This document shows, piece by piece, positions 23,826 through 33,444 of a DNA stretch of 64,000 bases. Under the pieces are notes generated by a model that searched no databases, had not been told where the DNA came from, and worked only from the letters and a program-made list of their open reading frames with translations. Source of the stretch: Raphanus sativus (lineage: Eukaryota > Streptophyta > Magnoliopsida > Brassicales > Brassicaceae); NCBI RefSeq assembly GCF_000801105.2, contig NC_079518.1, positions 18,642,800-18,706,799 of the forward strand, written 5' to 3'. The first letter of the stretch is position 1. Every line of letters begins with the position of its first letter. The position numbers were made by a program, and so were the translations under genes.

Positions 23826-24126
23826 TAGTATACTAAAGATGCAGTAGTTTGTACAAAACCTATTTTTTATTTGAATAAATTTAATATTCTTCCAAAAATT
23901 GTGGGCAAGTTATTTTTATACAAATATATTGAAAACCTGCAAACGAAAGAATGTTTGACATTAAGTTTTGGGAGAATTACCAATTGTGACTCAAAACTTG
24001 GATTCAAACCCAAAAGAGTACCCCAACTTGGGTCAAAGGCAAAAGTAACCTAAAAGGCTATTGAAATTACAACTATCTCCTTGTGAACAAACAAAAAAAC
24101 GGATTTTTTTTACGTTTCTACCCCTT

Positions 24127-24200
24127 GCAAGTCGTCTGTAAACAGACGACTTGAAAATAAGTCGTCCAGACGACTTTAAGTTAAGTCGTCTGGACAGTTA
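24127..24200. repeat. AAGTCGTC motif array, left end
   Basis: Five alternating AAGTCGTC and GACGACTT words lie within about 70 bases close to the element's left end. Decayed forms recur near 24590-24665. Confidence 0.85.
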
Positions 24201-24720
24201 TTCTTAAACATAATTTAAAATTTTTGTAAAAAATATTTTGATAAGTGAAAAATTGGAATTATGTAATTAACATATGTCTTAAGAGATATAAATTAATATA
24301 TAACAAATTTCAATTGTTTTCAGCCCAGATGAGTGAAAGTAGTGAGTCATGATATTCTTTAGTTTATGTTTCATCAACATATGTTGTAGTATTGTATGTG
24401 TTCTTAGGGTTAGATTTTGGAAAGCATTAAAACCGTTTTTGAAAATTTTTAAAATTACCTAGGCGTGTTCATTTATGTGTATAGTAAACACTATTGAAGT
24501 ATAATTTGATTTTATAACGTGGTTAGTAAGTTAATTTAGTCATTTTAGTTTAGGGGTTCATTTTAGGGTATTGGACTACTTAATATTTAGTCTTCTGTTC
24601 CCAGACGACTAAATATTAGGTCGTCTGATGTACATTATCAGCCAGAATAAGTCGTCTAAACCGGACTAAACCTTAAAGTTTACCAATGTACTTTTAAAGC
24701 TAACCGGATTATTTACCCAA

Positions 24721-25090
24721 TATATAAGGTGATTTTTTTTTTTCATTTTCCGCGAAATTCAGAAACCCTAACAGTTCTCTCTCACCGGCGATATCAAAGG
24801 CGATTCGAATTCCCACTATTTCCGAACAACCATCGTTCTCAACGTCGGCTATCTATCTCACTTCATTCTCACCGTTGTCGCCGCAGCTTCTTCTAACCCT
24901 AGCGCCGCCGATTCCTCTAAACCCTAGCGCCCCCGCTTCCACTATTTCCGAACAAACCGTCGCCCTCGCCACCGTGCTCACCAACGTTCTCACCGCCGCT
25001 TCCTCTAAACACTAGCTAGCACCGCCGCTTCTTCTAAACCCTAGCGCCGCCGCTTCTTCTCTGTAAACCGTAGCGCCGTTTCTCTGTAAA
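24721..25090 (+). promoter_or_regulatory. Promoter and leader of the Ulp1 gene: TATA box and telo-box cluster
   Basis: A TATA box (TATATAAGG, 24721-24729) is followed about 40 bases later by a leader containing AAACCCTAA (24763-24771). A degenerate repeat of CTAAACCCTAGCGCCGCCGC type then runs to about 25090, with roughly six AAACCCTA-like words. Telo-boxes near starts are typical of genes active in dividing plant cells and are also bound by TRB proteins. A role here is inference. The leader ends at the ATG at 25204. Confidence 0.55.
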
Positions 25091-25262
25091 CCCTAACGCC
25101 GGTAAGTCATCAAACTCGTGGAAAAGATGAACATAAAACGTTGTCTCTTTCAATTTAATCATTCTCACCGTTTCACGTTTATTTTTTCAGATCTATAACC
25201 ACAATGACGAGTACTCCAACTCCTTCTGCGACTAATCAGGTCCGCTTGAAATTTTTCTACTG

Positions 25263-25423
25263 GAAGACTTGTAAGTAAGTCGTCTGGAAAGTCTTCAACC
25301 TGGACGACTTAGTACGTCCATTTGGAAGACTTTCCAGACGACTTAAATATAAGTCGTCAACTAAGTCGTCCAGTTGGACGACTTTCTAGACGACTTATAT
25401 TTAAGTCGTCTACTAAGTCGTCT
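25263..25423. repeat. AAGTCGTC motif array in intron 1
   Basis: Core hexamers (GTCGTC, GACGAC or one-base variants) start at 25263, 25279, 25291, 25303, 25325, 25337, 25353, 25365, 25377, 25389, 25405 and 25417. The steps are mostly 12 with a 16 between the facing pair GACGACTT...AAGTCGTC. Confidence 0.9.
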
Positions 25424-26370
25424 GGAGTAACAATTAAGGCGTGATTGATTTAGCTTGTGTTCTGACTTCTATTGTTGTCTTTGATTATTTTGCAGACGAA
25501 AAGGATGGATATTCCAGAACTCCCCCGTAGGTTATACACATTAGGGGAAGAGCCAGAACCCCACAATAGCATTTCGTATCATACGGATAACACGAAGTTG
25601 CATACTGCTCTTAGGGAAGCTCTCACCGATGCTGAATTTGAAGAGCTCAAGGAGTCGAGATTGGGAGTTTTCATCAAGTTCAAGGAGCAGGGATTTGGTT
25701 GGGCTTCAAGGCTGGTTCACTACTTGCTCGGTTTAAAGCTGGACATTAAGAAGAAGTACGAGATGTGGTGTCTCGTTGGTCCAGAACCTGCGAGGTTTTC
25801 ACTGTTAGAGTTTGAAAACATCACTGGTCTAAACTGCGAGTACATCGAGGACCTTGAGACACCAGAATGTGAAGTTACCCCAGAGATGGTTTCTTTCTGG
25901 GGGATGATGGGAGTTCATCTGGAAGCTGGGCCAACTACTGATCAGATAATAGCAGCACTGAAGAGATGCGGGGATTGGTCCAGGGAAGATCGCAAGCGAC
26001 TCGCGTACCTTTCCATCTTCACTGGATTCATTGAAGGGAGAAAGTTCTCAAGCGCTACACGAGCTGTTCTGGCAAGGCTAGTGATGGATTTAGAACGGTT
26101 TGAGAATTATCCATGGTGGAGAGTCGCGTTTAAGGTGCTGATGGACTCTTTGTGGAACAAAGATATTACTGGCTGTTACACCGTGGATGGGTTAATACAA
26201 GTTCTTCAGGTCTGGGCGTACACAGCTATTCCGGGATTGGGTGCTAGTATTGGTCTACCCAGAGCAAACAGTCCGTCTCCACCGATTCTGGCTTACGAGG
26301 GCAGCAGAGGCCGCAGATTCATGAAAGCTGCTATCTTGAGTCAGGTACCTTTCCATCTTCACTTAATTAA

Positions 26371-26530
26371 GTTGTCTGGAAAGTCTTCCAGCTGGACGAC
26401 TTAGTAGACGACTTATTATAAGTCGTCTGGAAGGTCGTCCAGCTGGACGACTTAGTAGACGACTTATAATAAGTCGTCTGGAAGGTCGTCCAGCTGGACG
26501 ACTTAGTTGACGACTTATAATTAAGTCGTC
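26371..26530. repeat. AAGTCGTC motif array in intron 2, strictly periodic
   Basis: Cores start at 26371, 26383, 26395, 26407, 26422, 26434, 26446, 26458, 26473, 26485, 26497, 26509 and 26525. The steps are 12, 12, 12, 15 repeated (last 16), with orientation alternating two forward and two reverse. This makes a 51-bp palindromic unit repeated three times. Confidence 0.93.
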
Positions 26531-27492
26531 TATTTAGTATTTTGTTTCAAATATCTAACTCGATTCTTCTTCTATTTACTGCAGACCCGCGTGATCAACT
26601 TTGTTGAGAAGGACATTAGTGAAATGTGGCCAAAATGGGACTCTGAGGTTGAGGACGTGCCCGCGGAGAACATCATTAAAGTCATGTATGATCGGAGACC
26701 GTGGAAGTGGACCATGGATTGCTGGGAAGTCACTGGTACAAAACCTAAGTTTGTGACTCCATCGAAAAGAGCCAAACAGATGGTTGTGGTGGAGGTGGAG
26801 GAGGAGGAGGAAGACAATCAGAGACCTCAGAAGAAAGCTCGTAAAGAGGCTCCTAAAGAGGCTCCTAAAGAGGCTAGAGAAGAGGCTCCTTAAGAGGCTA
26901 GAGAAGAGGCTACAGAAGAGGCTAGAGAAGAGGCTAGTTGGGTGACCAGAGAGGAGTTAGAAAATATGTTCAAGGACTTAGGTGACATGATGAAAGATGG
27001 GTTTAAGAAGTGCATCAAGGAGATTAGGAAGATGTCCGATAGATTGGAAGCTGTGGAGAAGAAGGTTGGTGTCACCAATCAGGCTACCCCTCAAGCCAAA
27101 GAAACCGGGGTTTTAGTAACAAACAGCCTACCCCTCAAGCCCCATAAACCGGGGTTAGTAACAAACAGACTACTCCTCAAAAGGATCAGCCTACACTTCA
27201 AACCAATCATCCTACTCCTCCCACCAATCATCCTACTCCTCCCACCAGACAGCCTGCTCCTCAAAAGGCAAAGCCTACTCCTCAAAAGGCAAAGCCTACT
27301 CCTCAAACGAAACAGCCTGCTCCTCAAACGAAACAGCCTGCTCCTCAAACGAAACAGCCTGCTCCTCAAATGAAACAGCCTGCTCCTCAAACGAAACAGC
27401 CTACTCCTCAAAAGGCAAAGCCTTCTCCTCAAAAGAAACAGTCTTCTCCTCTGCCCAAAGAGGTTAGTATCAAATCCTCTCCCAACAAGAAT

Positions 27493-27590
27493 TAAGTCGT
27501 CCAGGGTCTTCTAGTTGTCCAGACAACTTTTATTTAAGTCGTCCAGGGTCAACTAGTCGTCCAGACAACTTTTATTTAAGTCGTCCAGGG
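27493..27590. repeat. AAGTCGTC motif array in intron 3
   Basis: Several AAGTCGTCCAGGG copies alternate with GACAACTT and AGTTGTCC variants, more decayed than in introns 1 and 2. Confidence 0.8.
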
Positions 27591-28169
27591 TTAACTTGCA
27601 ACTTTTATTGCAGAGATTGTTGCCGGAGGATACAGCAGATGAGGCGATCTCGGTATATAAGATCTTGCCGGAGGATAAAGCAGATGGTGTCACCTCCAAA
27701 GAGATTGTTCCTCTCACTTCCACTGACCAACCGAGCTTCGCTTCCAACGATCAACAACCGAGCTTCGCTTCCAACGATCAACAACCGAGCCTGGTTGTAT
27801 TGGACAAAACAGCTCCCACTGCTGCTGTGCGTGCAAGGAGTGAACGAACGAAGAAACCTGCTCCCACGCAGATATCTCCTTATACGGCAGAGAGAAGGAA
27901 ACTCCTTAGAGTGGGAAAGTATAATCCATTTCCCACACTAAACAGACCTAAGTTGAAGGAGCTCGCTGATTGGTTGAAAACTGATCCGTAAGTGATTGCT
28001 TTACCCATAATAGCTTGATTTAGTCTACCAAAAGTGATTGCTTTTTGTTTGCAGTGATTATTTAACTAAGCTAGAGGACAAACCACGTACATCACCAACT
28101 TGGTGGTATCATAAACTCCGGACACCCAAAGCATGGCTGGAAGACGTAGTAAGTCTTCTGCTTATCTTT

Positions 28170-28265
28170 AAGTCGTCTGGTAACTTGTCTTTGTATAGAT
28201 TTGTAAATATATAAGTCGTCTGGAAGGTTTTCCAGCTGGACGACTTACAAATAAGTCGTCTGGAA
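28170..28265. repeat. AAGTCGTC motif array in intron 5
   Basis: AAGTCGTCTGG words and a GGACGACTT lie between exons 5 and 6. The 67-base intron 4 (27988-28054) has none, probably because it is too short. Confidence 0.85.
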
Positions 28266-28987
28266 GGTTCTAACTTGTATTATTTTATATGCAGCATATA
28301 GATGCTTGGATGAATGTGCTAAGGCAGAGGTATAAGGAGAACCCACAATGTTTTCGGAGCGAGCGAATGTGCTTCCTGGATCACAACTTTACCCAGTCTT
28401 GGAGAGAACAGTGTCTGTTCTTCAAAGCATCGTCGTCTGATCACAATGGTTTAGGAAGAATGCTACCTAGTGGGGCGGCGAGTTTGTATGACGGATCAAT
28501 GCCTTCATTTTGCCAATCAAACAAGAAGTGGGGGGTGGACATTGATGATATCTATGCGCCACTGAACTTGGACAACAAACATTGGGTTGCTATTTGGATA
28601 TCAATCCCTAAGAGGCACATAGTCGTCTGGGACAGCATACCTTCAACTACCATACCAGAAAGATGGGATGAGATAATGGAGCCTTTTCTCGAGATGGTCC
28701 CTTATCTGATTGTGGAGTGCGGAGACCAGATGCATGGGTTGGAGCGATACACATATGAGAGACTGCTGAAAGATGTACCCACGGCCAACAATGGTGATTG
28801 TGGCGTGTACGCTGCAAAGTACATTGAATGTCATGCTCTTGGGGTCCCCTTTAGCCCTAAAGACTTTGCTAGGTCCAATGCGAAGACTATGAGGGATAAT
28901 ATGGCTGTGGTTATATGGACGGAGCTTGTTGATCAGCATTTGAAAGATAATGAGGATGGTGGTATGTTTGTGGGCATGTATGATTAG

Positions 28988-29643
28988 ATACACAAATCTA
29001 ACTTGTATAGATTTTTTAACTTGTATAGATATACAAATCTATTTGTATATTTGAACTATTTGTATACACAAATCGATTTGTATATTTGAACTATTTGTAT
29101 ACACAAATCTATTTGTATGTTTGTGGGCATGTATGATTTATTTGATTTTCTAACTTGTATAGATTTTCTAACTTGTATAGATTTTCTAACTTGTGTAAGG
29201 TTTTCCAGCTGGACGACTTACAAATAAGTCGTCTGGAAGGTTTCCAGCTGGACGACTTACAAATAAGTCGTCTGGAAGGTTTTCCAGCTGGACGACTTAC
29301 AAATAAGTCGTCTGGAAGGTTTGGACGACTTACAAATAAGGTAGTCTAAAAATAGTAGAAGGTAGTCTAAAAATAAAATACACTGGACGACTTCGTAAAA
29401 GGTCGTCTGAAAAAAATACACTTGAAGGGATAGTAGAAGGTAGTCTAAACACTGGACGACTTAAATACACTGGATGACTTCGTAAAAGGTCGTCTAAAAA
29501 AATACACTTGAAGGGATAGTAGAAGGTAGTCTAATACACTGGACGACTTCGTAGAAGGTAGACGAAACACTGGACGACTTAGAAATTAGTCGTCTGGACG
29601 GGTAATCAAGACTGGACGACTTAAATTTAGGTCGTCTGGACAA
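28988..29643. repeat. Intergenic motif array between the convergent MULE genes
   Basis: The first 200 bases are short repeats of ATTTGTATA and CTAACTTGTATAGATTTT type, probably the 3' region of the Ulp1 gene. From 29212 the motif array resumes: cores at 29212, 29228, 29251, 29267, 29291, 29307 and 29324 give 16-base pairs separated by about 24 (twice 12). Beyond 29340 looser copies (GGACGACTTCGTAAAAGGTCGTC) repeat to the transposase stop. Confidence 0.85.
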
Positions 29644-32049
29644 CTAGTCAACTGGTTGTGTACATTGTGGTTTCGTATGGCCAGTTTCCTTGCAGTTTGA
29701 GCATCTCTGTGCCCTGTGTTTCTTCCTGGGTTTGTGTCCTCTCATCCTAGATAGCTCCAACCAAGATTGCCATCTTGATTTCTTCTGTCTCCCCGGACCA
29801 CGCTTTACGTTTGGAGGAAAGCATTCTCGTTCTTCAATATGTTGTGACACGATAGGATATATATTCTCTGAGTATCCTGCATACAGATGATTCTTTGAGT
29901 AAAGTGGACATACAAGTGTGTCGATATGCACACCAGCATGTGTTCCAGCTGCTATAGCATGAGAGCAAGGTATTTTCTCCACTCCATAGACACCACAATC
30001 ACACTTTACATGTTCCAAATCAACCACACAGTCCATTTTGCCACCTTTGACAAAGAAACGCCATCCATCAATTGGTTCGACCGTCATCGTATCCGCTATC
30101 TCTGATCGAACAGCAAGCAAGTATTCAACACCCCGGCTATGTACAGTTGGGAGACTCAAAGCATCTTGTCTCCTTTTCCAATACCATTTTCCTAACTTCT
30201 GCCTTATGAACTCCAGCAGGAACGGAATCGGAAATCCTCTTGCTCGCTTCAGTGCGGAATTAATAGATTCAGCGATGTTGCTTGTTTTTATGTTGAACCT
30301 GTTCCCCTTACAATAAACCCTTGACCATAGCTTGGCGTCGGCCTTCTCCAAATACGTTGCAAGTTCCGGGTTTGCACTCTGTATCTCAGCCATGTACCGG
30401 TTAAAATCGTAAACCGTGTGCGCATAAGCAGCCCCTTTCACCAAGTACATGAGATGTTTCCCTTTAAACTTTTTGACAATGTTATCTTGAAGGTGATAAT
30501 AACATATTCCTCGGGTTGCCCAAGGAAACACCTTCTCACACGCACTTTTAATGGCCGCGTGCCGGTCAGAGACTATCACCAGAGGCTTGTCATGAGATAT
30601 ACAACTAGCCAATTTTGTGAAAAACCATTCCCAAGAAGGTTCATCTTCAGCATCCACGATCCCAAAAGCCAATGGGAATATCTGAAAATTGCCATCTTGT
30701 GCGGCTGCAACTAACATAACACCTCCATACTTTCCACTTAGGTGAGTTCCATCCACCACAATGACCCTTCTCTGATACTTAAAACCTTTGATAGAAGCTC
30801 CAAAAGAGAGAAATAGATACTTAAATCTTTTCTTAGAATCAAGTTCTATAGCCGTGATAGAATCAGGATTTGCAATGGAGATTTGCTCGAGATATGAAGG
30901 CAGACGCGAATACCCTTCTTCTGCTGATCCTCTCACCAATTTCTGTGCATATAACAGTGCTCAGTATGAAGTGGTGTAATCAAGCGTCATGCCAAACATG
31001 TTCTTCATTGCATCAGTGATATGCTGTGGAGTTATCCCATCAATGATCCCAACACGATCAATGAAAAGACTACCAACATACTTTGGAGTACAGTGTCTCC
31101 GCTGAGCGATTCGGTCTCCAATTGAGCATAAATGTTTTTCCACATACTTTGTTACCCAAAACGTGTTTGGCCCATGTTTCACACTCGCTCTGATCTTCCA
31201 TCCACAACCGCTAACCCGACATATTGCCACAAGGAGAGTTTTTGTTGATTTGTATATTCTGAAAGAAAACCTACCCCTCACTGCTGTCAACCGCAGCTCT
31301 GAAAGCAGTGCATCCTTGCTAACAAAACTCTGGTTGACATAGATGCTGGTACAATCCGATTTTCCTCCTTCAATAGCATTTGTCTTAGCATATGTCTTTT
31401 TAATTTCTTCAAAACAAATATTATCATCATCTTCCTCGTCCTCATCTAGAACCTTTCCATAAAGACTGTAATCCCCACCATTCTGATCCGTTTCACCAAC
31501 AATAGTGTTATCAGCATTCTCCTCCCCATTTTCATTCTCCCCATTTTCCTCCTCCCCATCTTGATTTTCATCTTCAACAGACTCATTATCACCAACATCT
31601 TCAAAACATTCATCAGCCTCATCATTATCACCAACATCTTCTTCCCATTCACCAGCTTCATCATTATCACCAACATCTTCTTCCCATTCACCAGCTTCTT
31701 CTCTTTTCTCTGAAACCGTTTCCACCTTGCTGCGGCTTGATACACAAAGACATACTCTATGCGTTTTGAGTATCTCGAGCAAGTTTCGAACTTGTCTATC
31801 ACTTGTAACATGAATGGGAGGACTGCCTGGAGTCATCATCATTTCTGCTGGTAATGAGTAGCTAATCTCCACAGTCACTGATCTCATGTCCAGGTTATAA
31901 TCTTCTTGAGCCATTGCAACAAGTTCAGCATGTGTTGAATCTTCATTCAATAAAAACAATCTTGCTCCTTTGAGATCATCAACCACAAAATCCCAACGGA
32001 AATCTCTCAACAACCATTCTCCATACACTGCATGTAACTTAAAAATCAT
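29644..32049 (-). pseudogene. MULE transposase (MuDR type) with one internal nonsense codon
   Basis: The frame is open from the Met at 32049 to 30964, then TGA (30961-30963), then open again in the same frame to 29644. The first part has a PB1-like N-terminal region, an acidic tandem repeat (units with GEWEEDVGDNDEA), and the plant MuDR DNA-binding segment with a CGWK motif. The second has the DDE core: Asp in VVDGTHLSGKYGG, Asp in IVSDRHAAIK and Glu in NIAESINSAL. It also has a SWIM zinc finger (CDCG...IPCSH) and a C-terminal CCHC knuckle (CSNCKETGHTKPQC). The TGA fits a CGA to TGA change typical of methylated DNA. The Met at 32049 directly follows a splice-acceptor-like TTTGCAG, so a leader intron is likely. 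It cuts and inserts the element when intact. Confidence 0.88.
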
Positions 32050-32992
32050 CTGCAAATATTCAAAATAAAACACATTAGTAAACATAGAGAAAATGAAGAA
32101 GTTCAATAAACATTATCGCAGACGACTTAGATTTAAGTCGTCCAGAAGACTTAAAGGTAAGTCGTCTAAAGAGGTCACTTTTGCAATTGAAAATTAAAAG
32201 GGACGACTTAATTCTAAGTCGTCCGGCTTTGTTTGTTAAAAAAAAAATTTCAGACGACTTATATATAAGTCGTCTACGAAAAACGGGCTAGTTTTGCATT
32301 TGACCGAATCGTGTCAGATCTTTGACTATTTCTGGATGACTTATAATTCAGTCGTCTCTGGAAAGTAAAAATTTCAATATTTTATTCAAACTAGACGACT
32401 TACGTGTAAGTCGTCCTAGGTTAGTTTTGTAATTGAAAAATAAAACTTGAAATTTAACTTTCTCCAGACGACTTAACTAAAAGTCGTCCAGTTAGACGAC
32501 TTAATTTAAGGTCGTCCGGGATAAGCAAGGTTTGGACGACTTAATTGGGAAAAATTCTGGACGACTTTGCTTTCCCCGGACGACTTTAAATTAAGTCTTC
32601 TGACGGGACGACTTTATATTATGTCGTCTGGTAAAAGTTAAATTATGAAGTTTTATTTTTTAACTACAAAACTAACCTAAGACGACTTACACGTAAGTCG
32701 TCTAGTTTAATAAAATATTGAAATTTTAACTTTCCGAAAGACGACTGAATTATAAGTCGTCCAGAAATAGTCAAAGATCTTACACGATTCGGTCAAATGC
32801 AAAACTAGCATGTTTCTCGTAGACGACTTATATAAGTCGTCTGGAGTGTTTTTTTTCAACAAACAAAGCTGGACGACTTAGTTTAAGTCGTCTGTTTGAC
32901 CAGAAGACTCATCAGTAAGTCTTCTACATACAGATGACTTACTTGTAAGTCTTCTACGCGAACAGATTTTGAAAAAAATTCAAATTCGTACC
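32050..32992 (-). other. Probable 5'-UTR intron of the transposase gene with motif array
   Basis: On the minus strand a donor (TTTAAG/GTACGAA, 32990-32992) and the acceptor TTTGCAG before 32049 would bound a 940-base leader intron. The intron holds more than a dozen AAGTCGTC/GACGACTT words, mostly as facing pairs with cores 16 apart (32121/32137, 32202/32218, 32253/32269), plus the long palindrome. The intron itself is inference from splice-like signals. Confidence 0.5.
32200..32893. repeat. Long imperfect palindrome, arms about 260 bp
   Basis: The left arm (about 32200-32462) runs from GGACGACTTAATTC through CTTTGTTTGTT, TTTGCATTTGACCG and CTAGACGACTTACGTG to GAAATTTAACTTT. The right arm (about 32633-32893) reads the same series in reverse complement, from AAAGTTAAATTATG to AAACAAAGCTGGACGACTT. 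The spacer is about 170 bases and holds more motif copies. Transcribed, it would fold into a long hairpin. Confidence 0.88.
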
Positions 32993-32993
32993 T

Positions 32994-33444
32994 TAAACTA
33001 GGTGAGATGACTTCGTTTGCACACAGGGTCTTCTCCAACCACCCAGAACCTCAAACGAAAGCAACCGTAAGTCAAAACGAAAGAAATATGGCTCTGTCAA
33101 CCATCGACCATATTTTGAATCAAAAGCTTCAGTTTTTTGGATGAATATGGAGAGAAAGTGAAAGAAATGTTGTTTTTAGTTCATAACAATTGAAACAGAG
33201 AGAGTGTAAAGAGATTTACGTGCATTAAAGGGCATTAAAAGCTCCAAACAGTTCGTACAAGGTTGTTCCCACTATTCATGGCAGTGGCAATATTGTAAAT
33301 ACTTGAAGAAAATGAGGTTGAGACAGTAAAGAAGCCATTTTCGAAAAAAAAAAAAAAAGGGTTAATGGCATTTTCGTAGATAAAATGCAGATGTGGGGTT
33401 AAAAACTCAAAAAAAAATGAGTCAAAAGAAAAGATTAGTTTTCC
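32994..33444 (-). promoter_or_regulatory. Right end of the MULE, presumed transposase promoter and leader
   Basis: The stretch from the proposed donor at 32992 to the right element edge has no long frame. An A-run lies near 33344-33358. On the minus strand it would hold the promoter and first non-coding exon. No certain TATA box was picked out. Assignment rests on position and on the splice-donor-like word. Confidence 0.35.

Follow-up and report, generated by a model that had tools for sequence, protein, structure and literature searches.

Organization of the element

The window analysed here is a stretch of 64 kb of the radish (Raphanus sativus) genome (G000:C8:18642800-18706799, in a genome of 433 Mb), and positions are counted from its first base. 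It contains a copy of a Mutator-like DNA transposon with a gene for a DUF1985-Ulp1 protein (the Ulp gene), a MURA transposase and a dense array of the short motif AAGTCGTC/GACGACTT in its non-coding DNA. The exon map of the Ulp gene was built from splice sites, and the parts of the element are as follows.

23970..33443, no strand: copy of a Mutator-like DNA transposon (VANDAL/KAONASHI-type); termini assessed by comparison of 8 copies
23970..25203, no strand: left end, with the 5' region of the Ulp gene; motif present as 6 exact matches (24129-24190; 24649)
25204..25239, + strand: Ulp gene exon 1, with the start codon
25240..25495, + strand: intron 1; 9 motifs
25496..26344, + strand: exon 2, DUF1985 (Pfam); GT directly after 26344
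26345..26584, + strand: intron 2; 9 motifs, 51-bp tandem units
26585..27462, + strand: exon 3; charged region with tandem-repeat peptides (12-nt and 21-nt units), broken in this copy
27463..27613, + strand: intron 3; 3 motifs and 3 AGTTGTC variants
27614..27987, + strand: exon 4
27988..28054, + strand: intron 4 (67 bp), the sole intron without a motif
28055..28148, + strand: exon 5
28149..28294, + strand: intron 5; 4 motifs
28295..28987, + strand: exon 6, Ulp1 protease domain (Peptidase_C48)
28988..29643, no strand: space between the Ulp gene and MURA; 12 motifs, several of them in dyads
29644..32051, - strand: MURA transposase open reading frame; no motif, split by a premature stop
32052..33433, no strand: right end, on the 5' side of MURA, with 23 motifs and a large inverted repeat

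The left terminus shared by the eight copies is GGGAGAATTACC. On the right, six of the seven other copies run about 40 bp past the break in the window copy to end in AATAAGCCC, and the seventh ends in AAAAAGCC. Element-like sequence in the window copy stops near 33443, about 40 bp short of the right end, and the boundary drawn there by an earlier sequence-only reading is not a true terminus. Among the copies compared by eye, a TGACTCAAAACTTG block lies near both ends in mutually inverted orientation, and target-site duplications of 10 bp (copy on C1), 9 bp (C7) and 8/9 (C4) were read; the window copy lacks the right end. The copies thus show the VANDAL-type traits of a target-site duplication of about 9 bp and short degenerate terminal repeats. 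A 7/9 target-site duplication at 23961/33434 was discarded as a chance match on the evidence of the ends of the other copies. The window copy is dead, because its right end is missing, exon 3 contains an in-frame TAA at 26891 and a shift of the open frame further on, and MURA is interrupted by a stop near 30961.

Exon 2 scored 86.1 bits against DUF1985 (Pfam cut-off 35.1) and resembles VANC21 by profile (E 7e-6). The fold match between this domain and VANC21 ranks strongly but is not conclusive by itself, and it is DUF1985, not Ulp1, that corresponds to the DNA-bound VANC21 chain. Exon 6 scored 115.1 bits against Peptidase_C48 (cut-off 20.7), and its KHW, VWD and GDCG stretches, starting at 28577, 28625 and 28793, are those that we take to carry the usual protease triad of His, Asp and Cys. 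A comparison of the Ulp1 exon with the PDB at E 0.001 gave no match. In MURA, the DBD_Tnp_Mut, MULE and SWIM domains scored above their cut-offs and CCHC below (17.4 of 20.8 bits). An Ulp1 domain inside a DUF1985 gene that is opposite in orientation to MURA is a trait of KAONASHI (KIU). Evidence from domains, fold and the motif map bears out the sequence-only reading in its claim of a Mutator element of VANC type with an Ulp1/DUF1985 gene and its own non-coding array.

Number and placement of the motif

The motif has 66 exact matches, all within 24129-32892, and none in the rest of the window; the dinucleotide composition of the element predicts about 0.3 for it. The core is AGTCGTC[C/T] (AGTCGTCC/T), with a CpG inside. 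No exact match falls in the six Ulp gene exons or in the MURA open reading frame. Non-coding DNA makes up 43.7% of the element and holds 66/66 motifs, for which the chance is about 10^-24 if sites are taken as independent, which they are not, as arrays duplicate. The distribution over the left end, four of the five Ulp1-gene introns, the intergenic space and the right end is as first described, and so is the near-absence from exons, where one 7-mer (AGTCGTC, near 28621) overlies the I-V-V-W-D codons of the Ulp1 domain in exon 6. Density of a short motif in the non-coding DNA of its own element, with none in exons, is a VANC-type trait.

Alternatively, the MURA transposase could bind the same motif in subterminal repeats such as other DNA transposons have, with the Ulp1 gene as an unrelated passenger. 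The right end is the richest in motifs and MURA carries a DNA-binding domain and SWIM, but the introns of the Ulp gene hold 25 motifs and the intergenic space another 12, some of them kilobases away from either end, where a transposase would have no need of sites, and this counts against the explanation. Sites of VANC21 and VANC6 also show an identical non-coding spread. We regard the passenger explanation as unlikely, and subterminal MURA sites as the sole role of the motif are rejected on account of the intronic and intergenic motifs.

Two further repeats were observed within the element. A 194-nt inverted repeat (32262-32455 / 32641-32834, 86% complementary) lies within the right-end array and is a possible source of small RNA, and short AT-rich tandem repeats (TCTAACTTGTATAGATTT units) occupy 28997-29207, just 3' of the Ulp gene stop.

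Arrangement of the motif in dyads

Among neighbouring motif pairs within 80 bp in the window element, 35/56 are inverted, and the array is not a one-orientation array like that of VANC21. A distance of exactly 14 bp between starts, seen in 15 of the 19 converging pairs, is the commonest single arrangement. The commonest unit is accordingly a 22-bp mirror-image dyad, GACGACTT-N6-AAGTCGTC, placed head-to-head in a fixed 14-bp register, as in the following example.

29212..29233, no strand: 22-bp dyad GACGACTT-N6-AAGTCGTC

The 15 strict dyads carry 12 different 6-bp spacers. Seventeen imperfect dyads (up to 3 mismatches) comprise 11 with one change, 4 with one uncompensated change per side and 2 with three changes. 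Same-strand motif distances peak at 10-10.25 bp and opposite-strand distances at 12.75-13 bp (3/8 copies tested; 1/301 by jitter), and the 51-bp unit by itself could account for part of these peaks.

Mirror pairs might also act as RNA hairpins that serve splicing or export or give rise to small RNA. Changes in the arms speak to this point: only 1/23 is matched on the opposite arm in the element and 5/58 across the element, a close copy (L068) and two diverged relatives (L001 and L002) described below, and none of the four imperfect dyads with one change per side is compensated. Since arm changes are so rarely matched, protein half-sites are favoured over an RNA stem. Sites are also frequently tandem or unpaired. 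In favour of hairpins, GACGACTTA-N4-TAAGTCGTC is self-complementary, the right end contains the 194-nt inverted repeat, and L001 and L002 each have one symmetric AAGTCTTC dyad in which both arms are altered alike. Self-complementary DNA could feed small RNAs regardless of the main role. As the main role, RNA hairpins are rejected in view of the uncompensated dyad changes, and overall we consider this explanation highly improbable.

Conservation of motif sites

Divergence was measured in ordered pairwise comparisons among the 8 copies, of which those on C4 and C3517 have identical flanks and may be one insertion. Differing positions amount to 1.02% in motifs, 3.55% in other non-coding DNA and 2.34% in coding DNA. 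The motifs were chosen as intact in one copy, a choice that hides about half of their change, and the loss of CpG is therefore the fairer test. CpG was lost at 93/3418 positions in motifs, 332/4457 in other non-coding DNA and 460/7027 in coding DNA. Motif CpG loss is thus 2.7-fold rarer than that of other non-coding DNA (bootstrap over columns, ratio 0.36, 0.17-0.65).

The diverged relatives L001 and L002, whose kinship here refers to aligned motif-bearing DNA, are, over the parts aligned, 77-79% identical to the window element outside the cores and 93-98.5% identical within them. Converging core pairs keep the same gap in 8/9 and 7/11 cases, respectively, and none of the dyad spacers is among the strict core-dyad spacers of the window. 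The half-site in these relatives is often TAGTCGTC, with 7 sites each. Spacers of the ACAGGT/ACCTGT kind recur in both and mark them as a sub-family with a distinct type of dyad.

These data bear on whether the array is a passive product of repeat drift, with short satellites grown by slippage in introns and ends and no recognised function. Arrays do grow by tandem duplication, as shown by the 51-bp units of intron 2 and by further units held in common. However, the cores diverge less than the surrounding DNA both in close copies and in the relatives at about 77-79%, the dyad register is constant while spacers vary, and exons are spared. Passive drift is very unlikely in our judgement.

Homogenisation of repeats could contribute to the low CpG loss in motifs, and the CpG test with diverged relatives gave the same direction in 3/4 cases and the opposite in 1/4. 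One observation weighs against selection: the pooled ratio of nonsynonymous to synonymous substitution (dN/dS) between copies is about 1 for DUF1985 (0.94) and for one part of MURA (1.11); in the same copies it is below 1 for Ulp1 (0.68) and for the other MURA part (0.48).

Copies of the family in the radish genome

A protein search of the genome with the window DUF1985 exon yielded 1092 candidates, of which 138 were scored. All 138 places are at least 90% identical to the exon, and 125 have no stop in the match. A single score, 624.4 bits, is shared by 76 of them; 58 of these are located on the nine large contigs, the other 18 on small ones, which may include assembly duplicates. At the DNA level, where the comparison covers 3/76 equal-score places, L068 and L069 are 99.4% identical over 2,195 columns, with 3 mismatches and 10 gaps; up to where an assembly gap begins, L070 is 100% identical to both over about 1.3 kb. 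With more than half of the scored exons at one score, the family underwent a very recent burst.

The exons of L068 are open as far as read, and about two thirds of exon 6 are missing or unread. This copy has 51 motifs where the window copy has 25 in the same span. The 26 extra motifs are in intron 2 (13, in added 51-bp units), intron 5 (8) and intron 3 (5). This suggests, from the one copy read at that length, that more sites accompany copy success.

Another DUF1985 lineage and its array

In a wider survey for DUF1985, 150 places were scored from 1073 candidates; 14 control genomes gave no candidates. Relatives of the DUF1985-Ulp1 protein, which the sequence-only reading expected in other motif-bearing elements, were found in motif-bearing copies. 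Another lineage is represented by L063 and L064, with DUF1985 domains 28-29% identical to that of the window protein, and both have arrays of CAGGTRTWC, a word picked from the enriched 8-mers of these two loci.

G000:C4:18027122-18031121, 2620-2985: L063 array, CAGGTRTWC
G000:C8:14322610-14326609, 2628-2978: L064 array, CAGGTRTWC

All sites (11/11 in L063 and 9/9 in L064) are in one orientation, with spacings of 21, 22 and 43 bp among others. The best k-mer scores are 4.5-12 for the window flanks (6/7 pieces), 25-27 for L063/L064, 47-63 for L001/L002 and 180 for the element. With the exception of the telomere-like repeat of L044, no comparable array was found in L033-L062 (all 30, then 13 group representatives), where non-coding stretches are short, or within 2.5 kb in L065-L067, where 88, 1098 and 288 non-coding bases are left after masking.

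A different array beside a different DUF1985 protein is as co-variation of motif and protein predicts. The co-variation proposed earlier is upheld to this extent, in a sample of two array-bearing lineages, namely the window family with its L001/L002 relatives and L063/L064. A search of viral contigs for the 22-bp dyad pattern gave 0 matches. At L044 (near G000:C1:628961), a DUF1985 locus was seen beside a telomere-like CTAAACCC repeat with 39 exact 8-mers in 3.4 kb.

Comparison with known anti-silencing systems

The window element resembles VANC21 of VANDAL21 (Hiun; structure 9lnj/9lnk) in the sequence and fold of the DUF1985 region, in having its sites in introns as well as in intergenic and terminal non-coding DNA, and in a variable region with peptide repeats. 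It differs in its motif, since VANC21 sites are YAGTATTAY in the same orientation whereas those of the element are AGTCGTC[C/T] dyads, and in its domains, which are DUF1985 and Ulp1 as opposed to the named DUF1985 and DUF287 of VANC21.

According to the available excerpts of Hosaka et al. (2017; PMC5735166), the motifs of VANC6 of Arabidopsis VANDAL6 are AGTTGTCC and AGTTGTAC. VANC6 likewise is a transposon-encoded VANC protein with tandem site repeats in non-coding DNA, and its CC-type motif AGTTGTCC differs from the window core AGTCGTCC/T by one base, C in place of T (PMC5735166). Unlike VANC6, the window core contains a CpG and comes from a different genus (PMC5735166). The window element has mirror-image dyads in a fixed register and a gene with Ulp1; the orientation of VANC6 sites is not stated in the same excerpts of PMC5735166, and Ulp1 is absent as a word from the whole paper. 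The motif had been called unfamiliar, and this holds for the AGTCGTC form, which is apparently new, but not for its general kind, which is close to described motifs.

VANC genes with Ulp1 are known as KIU/KAONASHI, and in the excerpted text of a 2026 review motif-specific anti-silencing is ascribed to them (PMC13317346); the kind of system is therefore already known. Like KAONASHI, so far as the excerpts describe it, the window element is a Mutator-like element of the type without terminal inverted repeats (non-TIR MULE) with an Ulp1 gene opposite to mudrA (PMC13317346, PMC2528002). The window element is most likely of the KAONASHI (KIU) Ulp1-VANC sub-kind.

The AGTCGTC code, the mirror-image register and the window family were not met in the literature searched, with subscription papers mostly outside it. 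Among the best 15 of 1,237 matches for the motif letters there was no transposon title, and among the matches listed for Raphanus with VANDAL, Mutator-like, Ulp1 or anti-silencing there was no title on the window family. A 2022 abstract by Sasaki et al. reportedly treats the gain and loss of domains including Ulp1, motif density and helical periodicity. The AGTCGTC code and the fixed dyads are apparently new, and that paper (Sasaki et al. 2022, EMBO J 41:e110070) may contain them. Also apparently new are the low motif CpG loss, the recent burst and the second DUF1985 lineage with a one-orientation array.

Proposed mechanism

We consider it probable that the element is a dead member of a Mutator-like family that has recently been very active and that carries sequence-specific anti-silencing of the VANC type. 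The DUF1985-Ulp1 protein would bind the AGTCGTC[C/T] sites that fill the non-coding DNA of the family. Because the commonest layout is the 22-bp mirror-image dyad, it would probably bind either as a symmetric pair or in the form of two monomers set in a fixed register. By analogy with VANC21 and VANC6, the bound protein would remove or block DNA methylation, in cis and on other copies in trans, and this relief would allow MURA and the DUF1985-Ulp1 gene to be expressed and the family to move. Site number rises by tandem duplication of intronic array units, as the comparison of copies shows, and the conservation data support the view that sites are kept by selection for binding. For Ulp1, in which the catalytic residues are present, a deSUMOylase role in the release of chromatin is a guess.

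A narrower version, which is possible but doubtful, holds that a dimeric Ulp1-VANC reads the 22-bp dyads like operators, with one CpG per half-site, and that CpG retention together with intron duplication drove the recent burst. The mark of the host would then lie within the code itself; methylation may block its reading and slowly turn AGTCGTC into AGTTGTC, the VANC6 form.

Implications

The layout of the dyads would be relevant to the design of tools for sequence-specific demethylation. A change of VANC target is directly testable here, because the motif is one base from that of VANC6 and the complex of VANC21 with DNA has been solved. The proposed system would extend transposon-encoded sequence-specific anti-silencing to radish, where the family has recently undergone a large burst. 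The family's near-identical copies with differing numbers of sites constitute a natural experiment in a single genome, which also offers relatives with the same dyad and other spacers and a DUF1985 lineage with an unrelated one-orientation array.

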